From contig MLAK01000677.1 of the NCBI GenBank assembly GCA_001839685.1, positions 1 to 64,000 of the forward strand: 64,000 bases of DNA, given 5' to 3'. The notes beneath the pieces were generated by a model. That model made no database searches, was not told the origin of the DNA, and saw only the letters and a list, made by a program, of their open reading frames with translations. The position numbers and the translations under genes are program-made. Below, one piece after another: positions 5,870 to 57,721 of this stretch (position 1 is the first letter of the stretch; each line of letters begins with the position of its first letter). Origin of the DNA: Tritrichomonas foetus (Eukaryota > Parabasalia > Tritrichomonadida > Tritrichomonadidae).

Positions 5870-7039
5870 TTAATCATATTCCTGTTGAGATTCAACTATA
5901 ACATATCTCAAATTTGAAAATTCTCTTCGGGGACTCATCTGAGATTGTGAAATTGTAAATGACTTTGTTGGTGAACTTGGAGACAATTGTGAATATGATC
6001 TTAATGGTGAATTTGGAGGAGCATATGGCTTATCCAAAACACTGAAAAATTGTTCATAGCAATTTCCACTACATCCCATAGCAAAAACGATTTCATTAAA
6101 GGAACGCCCCAATTCTTCTGTCTCTAAAACGTCCAAAAATAATTCACTAACAATTCTTGGATTATTTTCACAATTTCCACATCCAAATGGTCCTAAAACT
6201 AAAGCATCAGCATGATAGCTTGTTGCAGTTTCAATAATTGTTCTAATTCGTTTTTTCATCTCATCTTGAATACCTCGATTAGAAATATTGGAATTGGAAT
6301 CACAGATGCGTTTTCGATTGACAGGACAAGCAGAGATTATATCAACTGTACAATAGTCATTTTTCGATAATAATTCACCATGGTCATCTTGCAATACTGG
6401 AACACCTGGAGAATAAATAATTCCATTGTTTTTCAGTGGAATTGTTTGATCCTTGTTTTTTTGGAAAAAGTGATCACAGACTTTAGAATTTAAAGAAGCA
6501 GATAAAGCAGTTTGCCTTAAAAGACAAGATTCTTGTGAATTCCTATTCATCATATCTTTAGGAGGAAGCCCAGATGCAAAGTTGACAACTGTTACTATAT
6601 CATATCGACTTCTGAGGTCCAATGCAGCTGAAATTGTTTTGCATGTCAACACCTTGATATTTAATTCATTTTTTTCGATATGTGTTGGTGGTGGAATTTG
6701 AATCAATTCAGTGTTATCAACACATTCCATCAAATGATGAGAAAAATCTACTTTAAAACCATATCGATCTTTATATACTCCTTGCTCCAAAATCTCTTGT
6801 ATTTTTTTGACATTGGAATTTTTAGGATTTCTGTCTTGCTGAGCGAATGGATTGCCACATCGTTTTAATTTTCGATGTACATTGCATGATTGACGATTAC
6901 CAACTCTATTCATTATTGGAATATCATTGGTGACGTGACTTTCAAAACATATTATTCCTCTCAAAATTCTGATGATATTTAGCCGTGAATTAAAGTGAGA
7001 ATCAGCAAATTGGCACCATGTCAGCGAATTTTTAAACAT
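5870..7039 (-). CDS. Microbial-type PARG (DUF2263 macrodomain) protein, degenerate active loop
   Basis: The 389-residue protein resembles the bacterial-type poly(ADP-ribose) glycohydrolase family (TIGR02452/DUF2263), which removes ADP-ribose chains from proteins. Family landmarks are present: VVNFASG (residues 151-157), the late strand IIYSPGVPVLQDD (207-219), and LVLGPFGCGNCENNP (280-294), which equals the usual LGAWGCG..N.P. The ADP-ribose-binding and catalytic loop is altered. The usual PGGG is absent, and the usual QEE reads QES (169-171), so only one of the two acidic residues remains. Activity may be lost or changed. An Inr-type TCATT on the minus strand (7057-7061) lies just upstream of the ATG at 7039, supporting this start; a second in-frame ATG is at residue 43. 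The tail after residue 340 is Ser/Pro-rich. Confidence 0.75.
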   Translation of the reverse strand: MFKNSLTWCQFADSHFNSRLNIIRILRGIICFESHVTNDIPIMNRVGNRQSCNVHRKLKRCGNPFAQQDRNPKNSNVKKIQEILEQGVYKDRYGFKVDFSHHLMECVDNTELIQIPPPTHIEKNELNIKVLTCKTISAALDLRSRYDIVTVVNFASGLPPKDMMNRNSQESCLLRQTALSASLNSKVCDHFFQKNKDQTIPLKNNGIIYSPGVPVLQDDHGELLSKNDYCTVDIISACPVNRKRICDSNSNISNRGIQDEMKKRIRTIIETATSYHADALVLGPFGCGNCENNPRIVSELFLDVLETEELGRSFNEIVFAMGCSGNCYEQFFSVLDKPYAPPNSPLRSYSQLSPSSPTKSFTISQSQMSPRREFSNLRYVIVESQQEYD

Positions 7040-49783: not shown

Positions 49784-52279
49784 TTACTGAACAGCCCTCT
49801 GATATAAAGCGTGAAGGCGTCTCTCTAAGTCTACGACGACGACTGAGATGTTCTCGGTGGAGAATGATGTGAAAGCAATGTTCCTGAGGTCATAAGCAAG
49901 CTCTTGAGCACAGCTTGCGCGTGCAGCCAAATCCGCGATTGTTTCGTCTGATAAGACGTTGTAGAGACCATCGGAACCGATGACGAGCCACCTGTCGTTG
50001 TTTTCGAATTCAACGAATTGAATGTCGGCTGTCTGGGTGACTCCGGAGATTGAAGAGTCACCAAGAGCACGAGAAGCAGGAATGCGGCCCATTGTGAGCT
50101 TGTTTTGGACAAATCCACCACGTTGTTTGATGAGGTCGATTTCTTCCCTGTCGGATGGCTTGTGTTGGTCTGTGACGAGCTTGATTTGTCCTCCCTTCTT
50201 AATGAGCATTGTCTTTGTGCTTCCAATTGTTGTGATGAGTGCTTGTTGTCCTGCGACGAGTGCGAACGAACAGCAAGCGCCGTCGGCGATCTTGTTTTCG
50301 CGGATGGATTGGACGAGTCTGCGAAGGACGCGCTCGAGGCCTGCAATGGAAAGTTCGATATCTTGTGATTCATAAAGCATGGCGATTTGCTTGGATGAGA
50401 AAACGGCAGCCAAAGGACCGTTGTGGCCATCGAAAACACCGAAAAGATCGGCACGGCCACGAACGTTGGTGAATGAAAGGATTGAATCTTCAAGGGTATC
50501 TTTAATTCCGCGTGTTTGGGCATAACCACTGTAGCATCCTGTTGAAACTGTCTTGACGTTGAACCATTTGTTGGGGTTAGAGTTGGCGAGTGTCTCGTTC
50601 ACCTGAGGCTGGTCGAGGAGGGTGATGTTTGTGTTGGAGACATCGAGGAAGGAGAGTTGGTATGGAAGACCGTTGGCAGTGATTGTGGTGGTGATTGGAT
50701 TGTTGTTGAGGCGGAGGGAGCTGAGCTTGGTGGCACGGAAGTGGCGGGAGTTCATGAGATCGTTGTGGCTGACATCAAGATCGAAGAGACGTGGATAGAC
50801 GAACACTTCTGGGAAGGCGCTCAATCCGTTGTATGAAAGATCGATGAATTCAATTGTTTCTGGAAGTTCTGGGAAGTAGAGGAACTTGTTACGTGATGCA
50901 TACAAATAGCGGAGTGACTTGAACTTAGGAAGCCATGAAATGTTGTTTCCTGGAATGCAAAGGACAGAAAGATTTTCGCTGTCACCGAGATTTTCTTGAA
51001 GTTCCCAAAGTCCGCAATATCCAGCAAATAATTGAGTGATTCCGATTGGAAGAGTTGGAATCATTTCAAGTGGGTTGCGGGAAATGTTAAAGACTGAAAG
51101 TGATGTCCATGATTCAATCTCGTATGGAATTTGTGTGATGTGGTTATTGAAGAGATTGAGTGTGGTGATTGGTGTTGCGAAGAGGGTGGTTGGAATCATC
51201 ACAATCTCATTTGAGTGAAGGTTAAGAAGATCAGCAACTGGAGAAAGGGCCTCTGTGTTGATTTCGGAAATGTTATTCTTGGCAAGAATATAAATTTTGA
51301 GCGCCTGGGAGTTGAACTGTGGGATGGATGTGAGGTTGTTTGATGTGAAATTGATGAATTCGAGGGCTGGTGCGCTGAATTCAGAAACCGATGAAATTTG
51401 GTTATTTGATGCATCAATATAGGTGACTGATAATCCAAGTGGAGCAAATTCGGTGAGGTTGTTGTAGGCGATTTGAATCTTCTTAAGATTAGCATATTGG
51501 TTGAGATCTCCTGGCATATTTGAAATCTGGTTGTGATTGAGGTTGATATCTTCGATAGTGTGTGGGAATGTTGGGAATGCGGTCAAATAGTTATCAGAAA
51601 GATCAATTTTTTCAGCACTTGGAAAGATTTGTCCTAAATCTGGAACCTCAGTAAGATTGTTTATGCTTAAAACGATGGTCTTTAAATTGCCCATGCAAAG
51701 CGTTGGTGAGATTGATTTAATGCCGCATTGACCAACAGCAAGGAACTGAAGGCTGGCATAATTGGGGAATGACTCATCAAGTGATTCCAGGGAGTTGTAG
51801 CTGTATCCGAACATTTCCACAGTCGATGGGAATTGTGGTGGTGTGGTAAAGAGGTTGTGACCAAGATCAAGCGCTCTGATGGATGATGAGGTGACATTGA
51901 TTGATGTTAATTTGTTATCGAAAAGTGAAAGGGCATTAAGTTTTGACATGTCATTAATTTCGTTTGGAATTTCCTTCAAAAAGTTTGATGAAAGATCGAG
52001 TTCCTGAAGTTTCTTGCTATTGATAATGCAGTTCCAGATTCCGGGTGGGATAGAACCACCGAATTTATTGTAAGCGAGTTTGAGAATCCTGAGTTTGGCA
52101 TTGGTGTCTGGAAGTGTTGTTAGACGATTGTGGGATAATAAAAAGACCTTAAATGTGTTCTTGGAGGCAACTTTCTCTGGGAGTTCAGTTAAATTGCATC
52201 CTGTTAAGTCAAGGATTCTCTTTGGCTTCAATAACTTTTGCGGCTTTTGCTCGGCTTGAGCTTGTTGGGTTGTAGTCAT
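49784..52279 (-). CDS. Leucine-rich repeat PP2C phosphatase (PHLPP-like)
   Basis: This 831-residue protein has about 20 leucine-rich repeats (residues about 25-560; for example LQELDLSSNFLKEIPNEI, LEFINFTSNNLTSIPQF) and a C-terminal PP2C domain (577-831). The order matches PHLPP and fungal adenylate-cyclase N-terminal modules, without a PH or cyclase domain. PP2C motifs are LED (E597, D598), FDGHNG (D617), SRALGD and GSDGLYNVLS (D770). The usual GDSR reads GST (686-688), and the last metal ligand DN reads EN (809-810), so activity is probable but not certain. An Inr (TCACT, 52285-52289) sits just before the ATG. The in-frame TTG at 52429 is therefore upstream of transcription. Codon use is less AT-biased than in neighbours, suggesting strong expression. 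The stop is within TAAA. Confidence 0.88.
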   Translation of the reverse strand: MTTTQQAQAEQKPQKLLKPKRILDLTGCNLTELPEKVASKNTFKVFLLSHNRLTTLPDTNAKLRILKLAYNKFGGSIPPGIWNCIINSKKLQELDLSSNFLKEIPNEINDMSKLNALSLFDNKLTSINVTSSSIRALDLGHNLFTTPPQFPSTVEMFGYSYNSLESLDESFPNYASLQFLAVGQCGIKSISPTLCMGNLKTIVLSINNLTEVPDLGQIFPSAEKIDLSDNYLTAFPTFPHTIEDINLNHNQISNMPGDLNQYANLKKIQIAYNNLTEFAPLGLSVTYIDASNNQISSVSEFSAPALEFINFTSNNLTSIPQFNSQALKIYILAKNNISEINTEALSPVADLLNLHSNEIVMIPTTLFATPITTLNLFNNHITQIPYEIESWTSLSVFNISRNPLEMIPTLPIGITQLFAGYCGLWELQENLGDSENLSVLCIPGNNISWLPKFKSLRYLYASRNKFLYFPELPETIEFIDLSYNGLSAFPEVFVYPRLFDLDVSHNDLMNSRHFRATKLSSLRLNNNPITTTITANGLPYQLSFLDVSNTNITLLDQPQVNETLANSNPNKWFNVKTVSTGCYSGYAQTRGIKDTLEDSILSFTNVRGRADLFGVFDGHNGPLAAVFSSKQIAMLYESQDIELSIAGLERVLRRLVQSIRENKIADGACCSFALVAGQQALITTIGSTKTMLIKKGGQIKLVTDQHKPSDREEIDLIKQRGGFVQNKLTMGRIPASRALGDSSISGVTQTADIQFVEFENNDRWLVIGSDGLYNVLSDETIADLAARASCAQELAYDLRNIAFTSFSTENISVVVVDLERRLHALYQRAVQ

Positions 52280-52284
52280 TTTCA

Positions 52285-52289
52285 AGTGA
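52285..52289 (-). promoter_or_regulatory. Initiator (Inr) TCACT
   Basis: Minus-strand TCACT five bases before the ATG at 52279. It decides the start of the LRR-PP2C gene. Confidence 0.6.
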
Positions 52290-52994
52290 TATTGTCTTTT
52301 TAATGCCGATAGAAAAATGGTGAAGTAAAATTCTGAAGATAAACAATAAAAATAGAAATTATCAAAAGAATATTTCAATTCAAATCTCAATAAATGAGAC
52401 CTATCTGCATATACCAATCCATTAGACAATTATGCGGAAGACAATGAAAAAGTATCATTTTTTTTCAATGAAACTTTCAATGAATAGTTTACATTCATGA
52501 AAAATTCAAAACCTTGAGGAATTTATGTATTGAAACAGTCATCGACACATTATTACTTTTTCATTTTATTTAGATCGTAAAGAAATGAATTGAATTAGAA
52601 AAAAAAGTCAAAGGTTTCTTAAGAATGAACTTTTTTACAAAAGTTATTTTGAGAACCACATAATGAAGAATTGTTATATTCCACAATATGACAAGTACTA
52701 ATCAAAGATCACAATATATATTGTACACTGTGCCAAAAAATATGGGTATTACTTTCACTAAGATACAAATGATAATTTGCTTATTTGAAAGATGCTTTCA
52801 TTGACATGAGATATGTCTTCTAGAGATCAATATGATAGATAAAGAAAGTTTCAATTTATATTCATGATCGATTTATTATTCTTTTTTGATTCAGAAAGTT
52901 TTTTTTTCTCTTCGGAATAATTTTTCTCGATAACATGTCAGAAAAGAATAATCACCCCTTTTCATTTCACATATCTGTTATTTCATATAACAAG
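52290..52994. other. Divergent spacer
   Basis: AT-rich spacer between the LRR-PP2C and ERV46-like genes. It includes a 24-codon in-frame extension (ATG at 52935) of the latter that I consider untranslated. Nothing else was recognised. Confidence 0.5.
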
Positions 52995-54160: not shown

Positions 54161-54233
54161 TTATAATCTTTAATAATCTTTTTTAATCTTTAATGATCTT
54201 TTTTAATCTTTAATGATCTTTTTTAATCTTTAA
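54161..54233. repeat. 20-bp tandem repeat, left of the transposon
   Basis: About 3.6 copies of TTTTAATCTTTAATGATCTT. The array continues at 57689 after the transposon, so the element split it. Each unit contains TTAA, the insertion target. Confidence 0.85.
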
Positions 54234-54247
54234 GGGGCAACTGACAT
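54234..54247 (+). repeat. Left terminal inverted repeat
   Basis: GGGGCAACTGACAT is identical to the reverse complement of 57675-57688. After these 14 bases the two ends diverge. Confidence 0.9.
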
Positions 54248-54681
54248 ATGAAGTGACCGAATGAAAAAAATGAAGTGATTGTTTCTATGTGATCTCTCAA
54301 TCGTGATTTGACAGGATTTATCAGAAAAGAATTGAATGCATAAAAAATAGTTCTTTCAATTTTTTTTCTGTGTGCATTCAAATGATCATATTAATCGAAA
54401 AAAATTCTCTTTATCAGAAGATTAGTAATGCTTTCTTTTATTCTTTAATTGGTATGCAATAATATATATATATCGAATAATGAAGACTTTTGCGCAAGAA
54501 AAAATGGTGCAATTTCATATGATTTTGTGATCAAGTTTTGGCGATACAGTTTTAGATAAACATGCATATAGCGTGGGAATTTTAACTTATTTTAAAAGTA
54601 ATAAAATCGATAAAATATTTATATATTATAAAAAAATAGTTACTTAATTGTTTATTTTTCCCCTCCTGTTTTTATAATCTC

Positions 54682-57450
54682 TTACAGATCCTGCATAATT
54701 TGCTCATATAATAAAATTTCTGGCCGTGATTTTTTGTCAATCTCAAAAGGACTTTTTATTTGATTGATAAATGAATCTGAAATCAAGAACCACTTATTAT
54801 TTTGGCGTACTACATCGAAATAATGCCCAGAATCTGGTAAATCTCGGAAATAAACTATCGATTTCATTGAATATAATTTTTGATTTATATGAAGTGTTTC
54901 TTTGATGTGAAAAATTTGTTCATAATTCGAATCAGTTAAATGAATAATTAAGAGAATGTTGATGGACACAATTTGAGTCATCATTAAAGGAGTATTTCTA
55001 CAGAACTGACAAATACTATCATTTATAGGTTCATTTTTACAACAATCTTCAATATTTTGTAATTCAGAGCATGAAATTGAGTAAAGTAGGTTATTTTCCA
55101 ACACTTCATTTCGAGCGCCACATTGTGAGCATAAAATGGATTTAGCAATAAATCCAGTCATATTTGCTATCATATTATATTTTTCTTCTAAGTCGTTCAA
55201 TAAAAATAGTAAAAACGCAGAGGTATCTCCTTTTTCATTGTACTTGATTGTTTGTGTAGAATTATTAATATAATAATTTATTATATAATCAATATCTCTT
55301 TTGTTAACGATGTCTTTTGTACATTTTTTCAAAAATAATAACAAATCGTCTTCTTTATTGAATAATAATAGCTTAGTTCGAAAATGCTCTGAACTCATTA
55401 ATAATTGAATTCCACTGTTTATGTAACAATTATTAGCTATATTATATAAACGAAAAATATTTCCTAGTAATGCTTGATCAAGAAATAGTTTCCCAAAGTT
55501 AAACAAATCGAAAATGGTCATAGAAAACCAATCATCTGCATTGATGTCCTTAAAAAAAGAATCTTCTTCAGGTGAATTGAAGTTGGTTTCACGAAAATCT
55601 AAATCGTTTGTTTCTTCTTCTTCTTTGAAATCTGAATGAAGGACATCAGTTTCCCGAAATTCTATATTTATTGGAGTGAAAACTTTCTTTAATTTGTAAT
55701 CACCTTCTTTCCTCCCTGATTGTCTCCTAAGATTTCTAGTTTTGTTTTTTTGTTGTATATATTTTTCTGTTTGTTGCTTTTCTTTGTTTAGGGTTTTTCG
55801 CAGTATATATTTATCGATAATTTGTTTATTATGATCATTTAATTCTGCGATATTAAAATTGTTCATGAGCTGGTAATAAAACTTGTGCCCCTCATTCCAA
55901 AGTAAAACCGTAATTTTCATTCTGGTTGAAAAAGTCATTTTCCAAGATTTATTTTTGGGAGCCAGTTTGATTTTGAGTGAATGTAAACTTTCATTACATT
56001 GAGTATTCTTATGGGGTTCTGTTTTTTCAAAGATAATAACATTATCATCAAGAAACGTATCAAGTCTATTTTTTAAATTAATATTTTTCGCAAAAGCTGG
56101 AATTTTAAAATCAATTAAATTCTCATGCAAACATTTCTGATGGTTATTCGAAAAATGTTCTGTAATATTAAAAAATTGTTCTTTTTTTGTTATCAGAGGT
56201 AAATCTCTGTCAAGCATCAGGACTTTAACGAATTTTAAAAAAGACTTGATTATATCTGAAAATATATTTTTATTGTCGAAATTAAATTTAAGAAAACGGT
56301 TTTTAAATTGCTTATATGCGTGATTTACATCTATAAATTGAATAATTTTCCAGTTCAACTTAGTAAATATTCCACCTACATTGTTATCGTTATCCATTGT
56401 GATACTATCTATTTTTGATAATGAACACCATTTAGAACTTAATTTATTTAAAATTTCTGATTCAAGTGACTGGGGAAATCCTTCGCAATTTCCAATAGAC
56501 CAATGGCTTTTTAATGACACTACATAATAGTCAATTATCTTTTGTGTTGCTAAATCTATGAAAGCACCAAAGCATTCATGTGCATTTCTTGGGTGAGACC
56601 AAGCAGAATCAAATGAAATGCTTGACTTTTCATTCATCATAGAGCGAGCATTTCTCAATGATTCATTTGTTAAATCATTTAATATCTCATCCACTTTTTT
56701 AGTTAAACGTAAATAATGCTTTTCTGAGATTGTGGCTATATTTAATTTAGCCAGAAATCGTTCAGCTTGACTAAATGATAAACCTTCTGTCAGGCAACTG
56801 AGCGTAAATTGAAGAGGATCAACTTTTTCATTACATATTTTATGTAAAAGATTTTTTTTTNTTTTTTTTTCGGATTTGGCTTTTATTTCACTGAATTTAT
56901 TAGATAATTCGCAAAAAGAACTATTTAATTCGGTTATTTTTTGTTTTAACTGAGTGTTTTCATATGTCAATGACGAGATCTTTTGTTTCAAACGGTTATG
57001 TTCCTTTTTTAATAACTCATTTTCAATTCTGCATTGAAATTGATCAAAATTTGGGTTGCTTTGGAGCAAACTGATAATTTCCGTTTTATTCATTGAATCA
57101 ATATAGTTTTGAACATCTATATATTCACTAATTGCCGGTACATTAATTATCTCTGTATGAGAAAACGACAATAAGTGAAATTTATTATTGCATTCATGAA
57201 AAGTTTGTTTCTCCGGGAAATTTGGAGCTTTTGAATCTACATAATTCTTTGTTTGAATCAGATGACAGTTTTTGTGAAAAAACAAGCGCATTTGATTGAT
57301 ATTATAGGTTGTAATAGGAATATTGCAGATTTTCAAAGCCTGCTCAATTGCAGTTCTTCGCATTTTGCTTCCCTGTAGTGAATGGTGATAGCAAAATATA
57401 TAGGGATAGAAAAAAGTTAGTTTATTCGCTGGAACAAACACTTTATCCAT
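54682..57450 (-). CDS. DDE transposase fused to a USP deubiquitinase domain
   Basis: The 922-residue single protein of the transposon begins with an N-terminal region and a coiled coil (about 143-195). The DDE-type core (about 275-530) has SFDSAWSHPRNA (D281), IDLATQKIIDYYVV, GNCEGFPQSLES, TMDNDN (D353 or D355), FIDVNHAYKQFKNRF and QCNESLH (E487). The pattern is Mutator/Kolobok-like. A charged linker precedes a ubiquitin-specific protease (C19) domain (about 665-905). There the Cys box is NIANNCYINSGIQLL (C675), followed by DTSAFLLFLLNDL, zinc pairs CSQC (774-777) and CQFC (814-817), the His box SGHYFDVV (H876) and D892, so the catalytic triad looks complete. One undetermined base (N, 56861) sits in a homopolymer and makes residue 197 unknown. 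The ATG at 57450 is the first in frame. How the protease serves transposition is unknown. Confidence 0.85.
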   Translation of the reverse strand: MDKVFVPANKLTFFYPYIFCYHHSLQGSKMRRTAIEQALKICNIPITTYNINQMRLFFHKNCHLIQTKNYVDSKAPNFPEKQTFHECNNKFHLLSFSHTEIINVPAISEYIDVQNYIDSMNKTEIISLLQSNPNFDQFQCRIENELLKKEHNRLKQKISSLTYENTQLKQKITELNSSFCELSNKFSEIKAKSEKKXKKNLLHKICNEKVDPLQFTLSCLTEGLSFSQAERFLAKLNIATISEKHYLRLTKKVDEILNDLTNESLRNARSMMNEKSSISFDSAWSHPRNAHECFGAFIDLATQKIIDYYVVSLKSHWSIGNCEGFPQSLESEILNKLSSKWCSLSKIDSITMDNDNNVGGIFTKLNWKIIQFIDVNHAYKQFKNRFLKFNFDNKNIFSDIIKSFLKFVKVLMLDRDLPLITKKEQFFNITEHFSNNHQKCLHENLIDFKIPAFAKNINLKNRLDTFLDDNVIIFEKTEPHKNTQCNESLHSLKIKLAPKNKSWKMTFSTRMKITVLLWNEGHKFYYQLMNNFNIAELNDHNKQIIDKYILRKTLNKEKQQTEKYIQQKNKTRNLRRQSGRKEGDYKLKKVFTPINIEFRETDVLHSDFKEEEETNDLDFRETNFNSPEEDSFFKDINADDWFSMTIFDLFNFGKLFLDQALLGNIFRLYNIANNCYINSGIQLLMSSEHFRTKLLLFNKEDDLLLFLKKCTKDIVNKRDIDYIINYYINNSTQTIKYNEKGDTSAFLLFLLNDLEEKYNMIANMTGFIAKSILCSQCGARNEVLENNLLYSISCSELQNIEDCCKNEPINDSICQFCRNTPLMMTQIVSINILLIIHLTDSNYEQIFHIKETLHINQKLYSMKSIVYFRDLPDSGHYFDVVRQNNKWFLISDSFINQIKSPFEIDKKSRPEILLYEQIMQDL

Positions 57451-57521
57451 TTTGAAAATGGCGGATTTTTAGTAAAAAAATTGAATAATATAATTTCAGG
57501 GATTATTGAAAATATTTCAAT

Positions 57522-57530
57522 GAAAAAGTT
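57522..57530 (+). promoter_or_regulatory. GAAAAAGTT motif in the transposase promoter
   Basis: GAAAAAGTT about 70 bases upstream of the transposase ATG, in opposite orientation to the copies inside the direct repeats at 57548-57626. Confidence 0.4.
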
Positions 57531-57547
57531 GATAAAATTGTGAAAGA

Positions 57548-57626
57548 AACTTTTTCAATAATTCTAGTAACATAACTTTTTAAGTGACGAATAACTTTTT
57601 CAATAATTCTAGTAACATAACTTTTT
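57548..57626. repeat. Pair of 34-bp direct repeats at the promoter end of the transposon
   Basis: Two identical 34-bp copies (57548-57581 and 57593-57626) are separated by 11 bases. Each begins and ends with AACTTTTT around a CAATAATTCTAGTAACAT core. They lie between the right terminal repeat and the transposase start, where subterminal transposase-binding sites or promoter elements are expected. Confidence 0.9.
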
Positions 57627-57674
57627 CTAAATCATTCATAGAGCTGCTTCAAAATTTTGATATAGCTCGATGTG

Positions 57675-57688
57675 ATGTCAGTTGCCCC
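57675..57688 (-). repeat. Right terminal inverted repeat
   Basis: ATGTCAGTTGCCCC, the inverted partner of 54234-54247, is followed directly by the TTAA duplication at 57689-57692. Confidence 0.9.
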
Positions 57689-57721
57689 TTAATAATCTTT
57701 TTTAATCTTTAATAATCTTTT
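57689..57721. repeat. 20-bp tandem repeat, right of the transposon
   Basis: About 1.6 further copies of the AT-rich 20-bp unit interrupted by the transposon, with small differences from the left copies. Confidence 0.75.

Follow-up and report, generated by a model that had tools for sequence, protein, structure and literature searches.

A Kolobok-type transposon family of Tritrichomonas foetus with a predicted ubiquitin-specific protease domain joined to its DDE transposase

We describe a DNA transposon of Tritrichomonas foetus whose predicted DDE transposase continues, in the same reading frame, into a ubiquitin-specific protease (USP; peptidase C19) domain. The element, here called family A, is 3455 bp long and lies at positions 54234-57688 on the minus strand of the window, the 64,000-nucleotide stretch that was analysed (contig MLAK01000677.1, positions 1 to 64,000, assembly GCA_001839685.1); it is bounded by perfect 14-bp inverted repeats and flanked by TTAA. 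A second, unrelated transposon of the same genome, family F, carries a USP at the opposite end of its own transposase. We lean somewhat towards the view that family A is a Kolobok-type TTAA cut-and-paste transposon with a C-terminal USP on its transposase, and that deubiquitination by this domain would let the transposition complex survive to move.

The open reading frame (ORF) at 54682-57450 (minus strand, as are all the protein features that follow) encodes 922 residues. Pfam recognises the Mutator transposase model PF20700 at residues 214-441 (56128-56811; E 3e-12) and the UCH model PF00443 at residues 667-915 (54706-55452; E 2.5e-13), the latter over model positions 2-254 of 254. The candidate catalytic residues of the DDE core are D281 (56608-56610), an aspartate in all five aligned sequences that reach this column, the D-x-D pair D353 and D355 (56386-56394), and E487 (55990-55992), the last two being invariant in six of six aligned DDE sequences. 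The USP domain contains a putative catalytic cysteine, C675, in the box NNCYINS (55426-55428), a histidine, H876, in SGHYFDV (54823-54825), an acid, D892, in LISDSF (54775-54777), and an oxyanion asparagine, N670 (55441-55443), together with two CxxC pairs at residues 774-777 (55120-55131) and 814-817 (55000-55011), assigned from residue placement. The first-pass annotation of this DNA had claimed a transposase fused to a catalytically intact deubiquitinase, and had named D281, D353/D355, E487 and C675 along with the His and Asp boxes and the CxxC pairs; all of these were located where it had put them, and the two Pfam matches and the residue alignment agree in predicting a DDE transposase joined to a C19 domain with its catalytic residues intact.

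The USP domain was aligned as a set of four transposon sequences (families A and F, and the related families B and C) with seven other USPs of the genome, an eighth (L072) being excluded because of a stop within its frame. Cys675, Gln682, Asp742 and His876 are invariant in all 11 sequences, and Asp892 and the oxyanion Asn are each kept in 10 of the 11. The four transposon USPs have 208 columns in common, of which six are invariant, the Cys and His included. UCH scores are 50.6 bits in family A and 36.3 in family B, against a cut-off of 23.9. A profile built from families A-C matches solved structures of USP18, USP46 and USP12 (E 1.3e-11 to 1e-8, USP18 being the best), and in profile-profile comparison it matches five of the seven other genomic USPs with a probability of 98.9. 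The genome as a whole has at least 143 UCH matches above the cut-off (63.7 Mb; 142 of 205 candidates scored), which is a very large set of USPs; many of these matches lie in frames that stay open for about 2,200-2,600 codons.

Near-identical USP sequence is present at 16 places, at 15 of which all 262 queried residues are found at 100% identity with no stop; at the exception, C436, the first 29 of the 262 are missing. Ten of these 16 copies (C287, C545, C148, C201, C585, C413, C87, C375, C414 and C727) have a whole and open DDE-USP part, which starts at about residue 196 and runs to residue 922, and in four others (C130, C435, C815 and C552) this part is open and begins inside the gene. The first-pass annotation had allowed that the DDE and USP halves might prove to be separate genes elsewhere, with a join private to this copy, and the 10 joined copies, together with the same arrangement in two diverged families, speak against this. 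A single-copy or chance join was likewise ruled out by the multiple open DDE-USP copies with separate flanks.

The terminal inverted repeat GGGGCAACTGACAT, found by an inverted-repeat search, occupies 54234-54247 (plus strand) and 57675-57688 (minus strand), and the TTAA target-site duplications lie immediately outside, at 54230-54233 and 57689-57692. There are 41 exact and six one-mismatch matches to this repeat in the 63.7-Mb assembly, and none to the reversed pattern used as a control. Copies were surveyed in the window and at 20 further places, 21 in all, with ten other contigs containing an exact end left out. Both ends are visible in 11 of the 21 copies (window included), with TTAA on each side in all 11, and a single end in nine, with TTAA at that end in all nine; neither end is visible in C727. 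The 14-base flanks are different in each copy. Because the one-ended copies (four 5' and five 3') are on separate contigs and may be halves of insertions, we count at least 16 sites. The aligned stretches are 97.6-100% identical, and the differences are mostly gaps, Ns and a 45-bp stretch of the 5' leader that is missing in C148, C201 and C545 and lies in a region of leader repeats at 57548-57627 (minus strand; TRF period 26, 3.3 copies); with copies so alike, reads of one may have been assigned to another during assembly, and the identity is possibly overstated. The window copy is inserted in a short tandem repeat of period 10 that is present on either side. C455 is a 1.1-kb copy with an internal deletion and both ends retained, and C373 contains a decayed relative with USP pieces 83-88% identical. 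The expectation of a TTAA-class element with several copies and matching 14-bp ends is thus borne out by the 41 exact repeats and by the 11 two-ended copies lying within TTAA, and on the evidence of its sequence family A is a recently mobile element.

Kolobok elements are described as having TTAA duplications, 5'-RR...YY-3' ends and a DDD/E core with C/DxxH, nearly all lineages having a zinc finger between C/DxxH and the E, and the DxxH signature is common to Kolobok and four other superfamilies (PMC9587614, in the part of the text available). Family A has the TTAA duplication (11 of 11 two-ended and nine of nine one-ended copies), GG...CC at its 41 exact ends, and a DDE triad with a DxxH signature at residues 374-377 (56320-56331), the D and H of which are invariant, like the D-x-D and the E, in six of six aligned sequences, and the first D in five of five. 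Between DxxH and the E there is an H/C motif, HFSNNHQKCLHE, at residues 432-443 (56122-56157), that is zinc-finger-like by sequence and comparable in position with the Kolobok zinc finger; its last H is invariant in the alignment, and its Cys is missing in the DDE-only family E, whose stretch contains Ns. Family A is therefore of Kolobok type by the sequence features tested. Membership of piggyBac was considered and rejected, as the ends begin with GG, the Pfam match is to PF20700 and no piggyBac model matched. The tvBac of Meng et al. (2011) is reportedly a trichomonad member of Kolobok, and Kolobok families of T. vaginalis are tabulated in PMC7845603, in the part available. Other members of the superfamily have the same TTAA, purine 5' ends (GG...CC), DDE core, DxxH and H/C motif as family A, but the accessory proteins named in the available part of PMC9587614 are KolX, a PD-D/ExK nuclease, a RecQ helicase, a His-Me nuclease and a DnaQ exonuclease, with no deubiquitinase among them.

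The N-terminal part of the protein (residues 1-197; 56860-57450) gave no match above cut-off in a Pfam scan and ends, by eye, in a K/E-rich coiled-coil-like stretch. At its junction with the following frame the window has a one-base assembly gap, an N at 56861 flanked by nine T on each side (A9-N-A9 in the coding sense, 56852-56870, minus strand). Five copies that are read straight across (C148, C201, C436, C507 and C585) have A9 alone, and C727 has CCG-A9-TC immediately after an N; among the other copies two (the window and C545) have A9-N-A9, three have longer N gaps, seven stop at the tract and three fall short of it. In the five A9 copies residues 1-197 and about 196-922 occupy different frames. 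The first of these, ORF1, runs for 216 residues from an ATG and ends about 20 codons past the tract (it is stop-broken in C436), and the DDE-USP frame, ORF2, is -1 relative to ORF1, the two having 85 nt in common; ORF2 has 731 codons in C148, C201 and C585, with its first Met 79 codons in, about ten residues ahead of D281. The first-pass annotation had read one continuous frame throughout, and this is solid from the DDE core to the USP but in doubt for the N-terminal 197 residues, where the frame crosses an assembly gap and the A9 copies are offset by -1. The gap precedes the DDE core, and the DDE-USP join is unaffected by it. The offset reflects either a frame change at the A-run or a tract whose length differs between copies and breaks the assembly. 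Frame changes at A-runs occur in many bacterial insertion sequences. Frameshifting stimulated by RNA structure was rejected as a demonstrated mechanism, the z-scores being weak.

Diverged DDE frames came up in a protein search of the genome, and two diverged families share the DDE-USP layout; their DDE-USP parts are 24% (B) and 22% (C) identical to that of family A. The DDE and UCH (E 4.5e-5) regions of family C (C802 and C437; L053 and L054) are in a single frame that reaches a contig end or gap upstream, and at the single visible end the divergence of the flanks sets in exactly at a TTAA, with GGATAAACTCC next to it. In family B (C755, C539 and C322; L052) the DDE core and a UCH domain (E 6e-9) share one frame, and in C755 there is one in-frame TAA inside the core and then 642 open codons; no clear inverted repeat was seen for families B or F in the stretches examined. 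A further locus, L051 (C592), has a DDE ORF with an adjoining USP relic in another frame. Families D (L060 and L061; C327/C339) and E (L062; C500) are DDE-only, with TTAA followed by GGGTGAGCTCC and GGGGGTTGTCT respectively, and a hidden Markov model of the USP alignment gave nothing significant in the stretches examined for these two. Given that the diverged families B and C have the same layout, the DDE-USP fusion is, as judged from sequence, older than family A. The DDE tree groups C with the DDE-only D and E (81%) and B with L051 (98%), and nodes containing transposon USPs in the USP tree have 35-53% support; the trees fit either one old fusion with losses or multiple gains.

Several other observations concern these families. 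The ends of D and E start with GGG, and these families offer a natural comparison for those that bear a USP. Residues 241-302 of the DDE protein of L051 match DUF3447 (ankyrin-like) with E 4.9e-4, which falls short of the curated cut-off, and a frame upstream in L052 resembles this stretch by eye, with no Pfam match. C425, C627, C108 and C576 share the family B 3' tail at 89-91% identity (93% for one short piece of C108) and are perhaps non-autonomous or decayed relatives. DDE and/or USP pieces similar to those of families A-C are present at C169 (86193-86387 and 86710-86982), C124, C263, C586 and C700; they are mostly stop-bearing, suggesting further dead DDE-USP families.

Family F came to light through six UCH matches of equal score in the scan of the whole genome. 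Its predicted 725-residue protein (L064:257-2434, corresponding to C21:19956-22130) has a UCH domain with intact catalytic boxes at the N-terminus (residues 6-284; E 6.1e-24) and a DDE_3 domain of the Tc1/mariner-IS630 type at residues 551-677 (E 5.9e-23). It is found at 100% identity at nine places (C21, C71, C169, C202, C281, C340, C627, C849 and C826), eight of them matching over the full length; neither its ends nor a target duplication could be located in the stretches examined. A diverged relative on C373 is 55% identical in amino acid sequence over 300 codons, with nonsynonymous (dN) and synonymous (dS) divergences of 0.346 and 1.99 (NG86), and over the first 285 codons these are 0.343 and 2.10 (NG86); the comparison points to purifying selection on the family F USP, although dS is close to saturation. 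Between A and F the USPs are distant (26% over 42 residues, E 0.002; 18% over 237 columns), and this distance, the different transposase and the opposite position of the domain suggest that family F acquired its USP separately, the USP tree giving low support to the nodes concerned.

Two other genes of the window were noted. At 49784-52429 (minus strand) an 881-residue frame has, by eye, leucine-rich repeats followed by a PP2C-type phosphatase-like domain, and the gene at 5873-7039 (minus strand) matches the microbial-type PARG catalytic domain with E 2.2e-16 (PF10021), although its neighbourhood is eukaryotic and includes genes for MCM2-like and ERGIC-type proteins.

Deubiquitinase or SUMO-protease domains have already been reported in several transposon classes, and the proposal in the first-pass annotation that this is a new architecture was overstated. 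The available part of Bao et al. 2010 (PMC2836005) lists a T. vaginalis protein, XP_001314237.1, with transposase_11 and Peptidase C19, and credits this architecture to Gladyshev and Arkhipova 2009; other deubiquitinase-bearing transposons are described in the accessible part of PMC9741609. Like family A, XP_001314237.1 comes from a parabasalid and joins a domain of the USP class to a DDE transposase, but its transposase belongs to another superfamily, transposase_11 (PF01609). Elements of the transposase_11 type were sought in the T. foetus genome and discarded as candidates, PF01609 having no matches. Helitrons and Helentrons with VTD or OTU domains also have a deubiquitinase within the main transposon protein, and a suggestion made for them is that it shields transposition proteins against the proteasome, but there the domain is on the rolling-circle RepHel whereas that of family A is a USP on a DDE transposase (PMC9741609, in the part available). 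Family F resembles A as a multicopy element with protein-identical copies and a USP fused to a DDE transposase, and differs from it in the DDE_3 transposase and an N-terminal USP that is not close to that of A. Kaonashi elements are Mutator-like elements (MULEs) with Ulp1, and Ginger elements carry OTU or Ulp1; both MULEs with Ulp1 and Ginger differ from A in protease class (SUMO or OTU) and in transposase superfamily. MULEs with Ulp1 are like A in that a DDE transposon carries a protease for a ubiquitin-like modifier (PMC2836005, in the part available).

No USP fusion of a Kolobok or mariner transposase was found in the literature searched, mainly as titles and abstract openings and with subscription papers mostly outside its reach, and neither PMC2725143 nor PMC10045372, two articles about trichomonad transposons, has the words 'ubiquitin', 'protease' or 'peptidase' in its main text. 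Protein searches for relatives elsewhere (limited in two cases to the best 7999 and 8000 candidates) returned one protein of 571 residues, from this genome itself; 234 pattern matches in viral contigs included none that was confirmed, and there were none in phage records. The novelty of a TTAA-class DDE-USP fusion is thus partial.

If the USP of family A serves transposition as we propose, the DDE half would bind the 14-bp ends, excise the element and reinsert it at TTAA, and the tethered USP would strip ubiquitin off the transposase itself or off its protein partners at the ends of the transposon; proteasomal clearance would be delayed, and the complex would persist long enough for transposition. 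The N-terminal part would be joined to the DDE-USP part through a frame change at the tract in the A9 copies, by ribosomal or transcriptional slippage, or else in copies whose true tract is different; the assembly is compatible with either. A role in cis fits the physical joining of a USP to two unrelated transposases, at opposite ends, and the presence of a USP on a second, unrelated transposon suggests that such elements may gain from acting on the ubiquitin system of the cell.

Several observations weigh against this interpretation. The family A USP is diverged, with 16-23% identity to the ten other aligned USPs; family B departs from the usual active site in having its Asp one column earlier and Gln for the oxyanion Asn; and the family C domain, at 23.6 bits, falls just under the Pfam cut-off. 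Pfam recognises PF20700 in families A, B, D and E and is silent on the DDE regions of C and L051, which are linked to A through sequence comparison only. The DDE-USP part is interrupted in two of the 16 copies, with 140 bp, the Cys box among them, missing from C436 and the frame broken in C507; there is an N at each of these two places, and either a deletion or an assembly gap is possible. DDE-only Kolobok-type families D and E are present in the same genome, so that a USP is inessential for such elements. The A9 offset would have to be overcome for a full-length protein to be made, and RNA folding downstream of the tract is weak (z -1.95 and -1.10).

An alternative that we regard as unlikely, although it is to be taken seriously, is that the USP works in trans, at the donor site or the target site, on ubiquitin in host chromatin or repair, be it on histone H2A/H2B, on PCNA or on a silencing factor; there it would open chromatin, steer repair or counter silencing rather than protect the transposase. 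Self-protection, action on chromatin and the countering of silencing are also the possible roles that the first-pass annotation had put forward. Tethering to a DNA-binding transposase would bring the USP to chromatin, the abundance of UCH matches (at least 143) makes ubiquitin signalling in this genome look rich, and a repair function for such domains was proposed in the available part of Bao et al. 2010 (PMC2836005); yet no targeting domain is evident, and self-protection takes fewer assumptions.

The identity of the substrate is a separate question. USP18, the best structural match of the A-C profile, is an ISG15-specific enzyme, and this match and the divergence of the domain from the aligned genomic USPs mean that ubiquitin itself may not be the substrate. 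We consider a peptidase for another ubiquitin-like modifier improbable, as USP46, USP12 and other USPs score closely and ranking at such distance is weak evidence. It is also quite improbable that the USP is a host passenger domain, captured from a genome in which USP genes are abundant and taking no part in transposition; DDE-only relatives do exist, but the four transposon USPs retain Cys and His while just six of their 208 columns are invariant, dN/dS is low in family F, and three families of Kolobok type and one of mariner type have the fusion. That the assembler created the DDE-USP join or the copy number is highly improbable: there is indeed an assembly gap in the window, at 56861, and the copies are alike enough for reads to be shared, but that gap is not between the DDE and USP parts, 10 of the 16 copies are whole and open with each copy having its own flanks, and the layout recurs in two diverged families.

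Protection of the Kolobok-type transposase by its own USP may be one instance of something wider. We put forward, as a tentative reading that falls short of an even chance, that a tethered USP is a recurrent tool of DNA transposons in this protist lineage, in which Kolobok-type, Tc1/mariner-type and, going by Bao et al. 2010, transposase_11 elements each acquired one, with an active site under selection that blocks ubiquitin-dependent clearance of the transposase. If so, attack on transposases by the ubiquitin-proteasome system would be a real host defence, and the A-tract that separates the DDE-USP part from the N-terminal part would additionally set the amount of full-length transposase. The two superfamilies with a USP at opposite ends, and the DDE-only families as controls, provide a natural comparison, and if the USP does protect or license the transposase, ubiquitin-mediated turnover would be a candidate host defence against DNA transposons.

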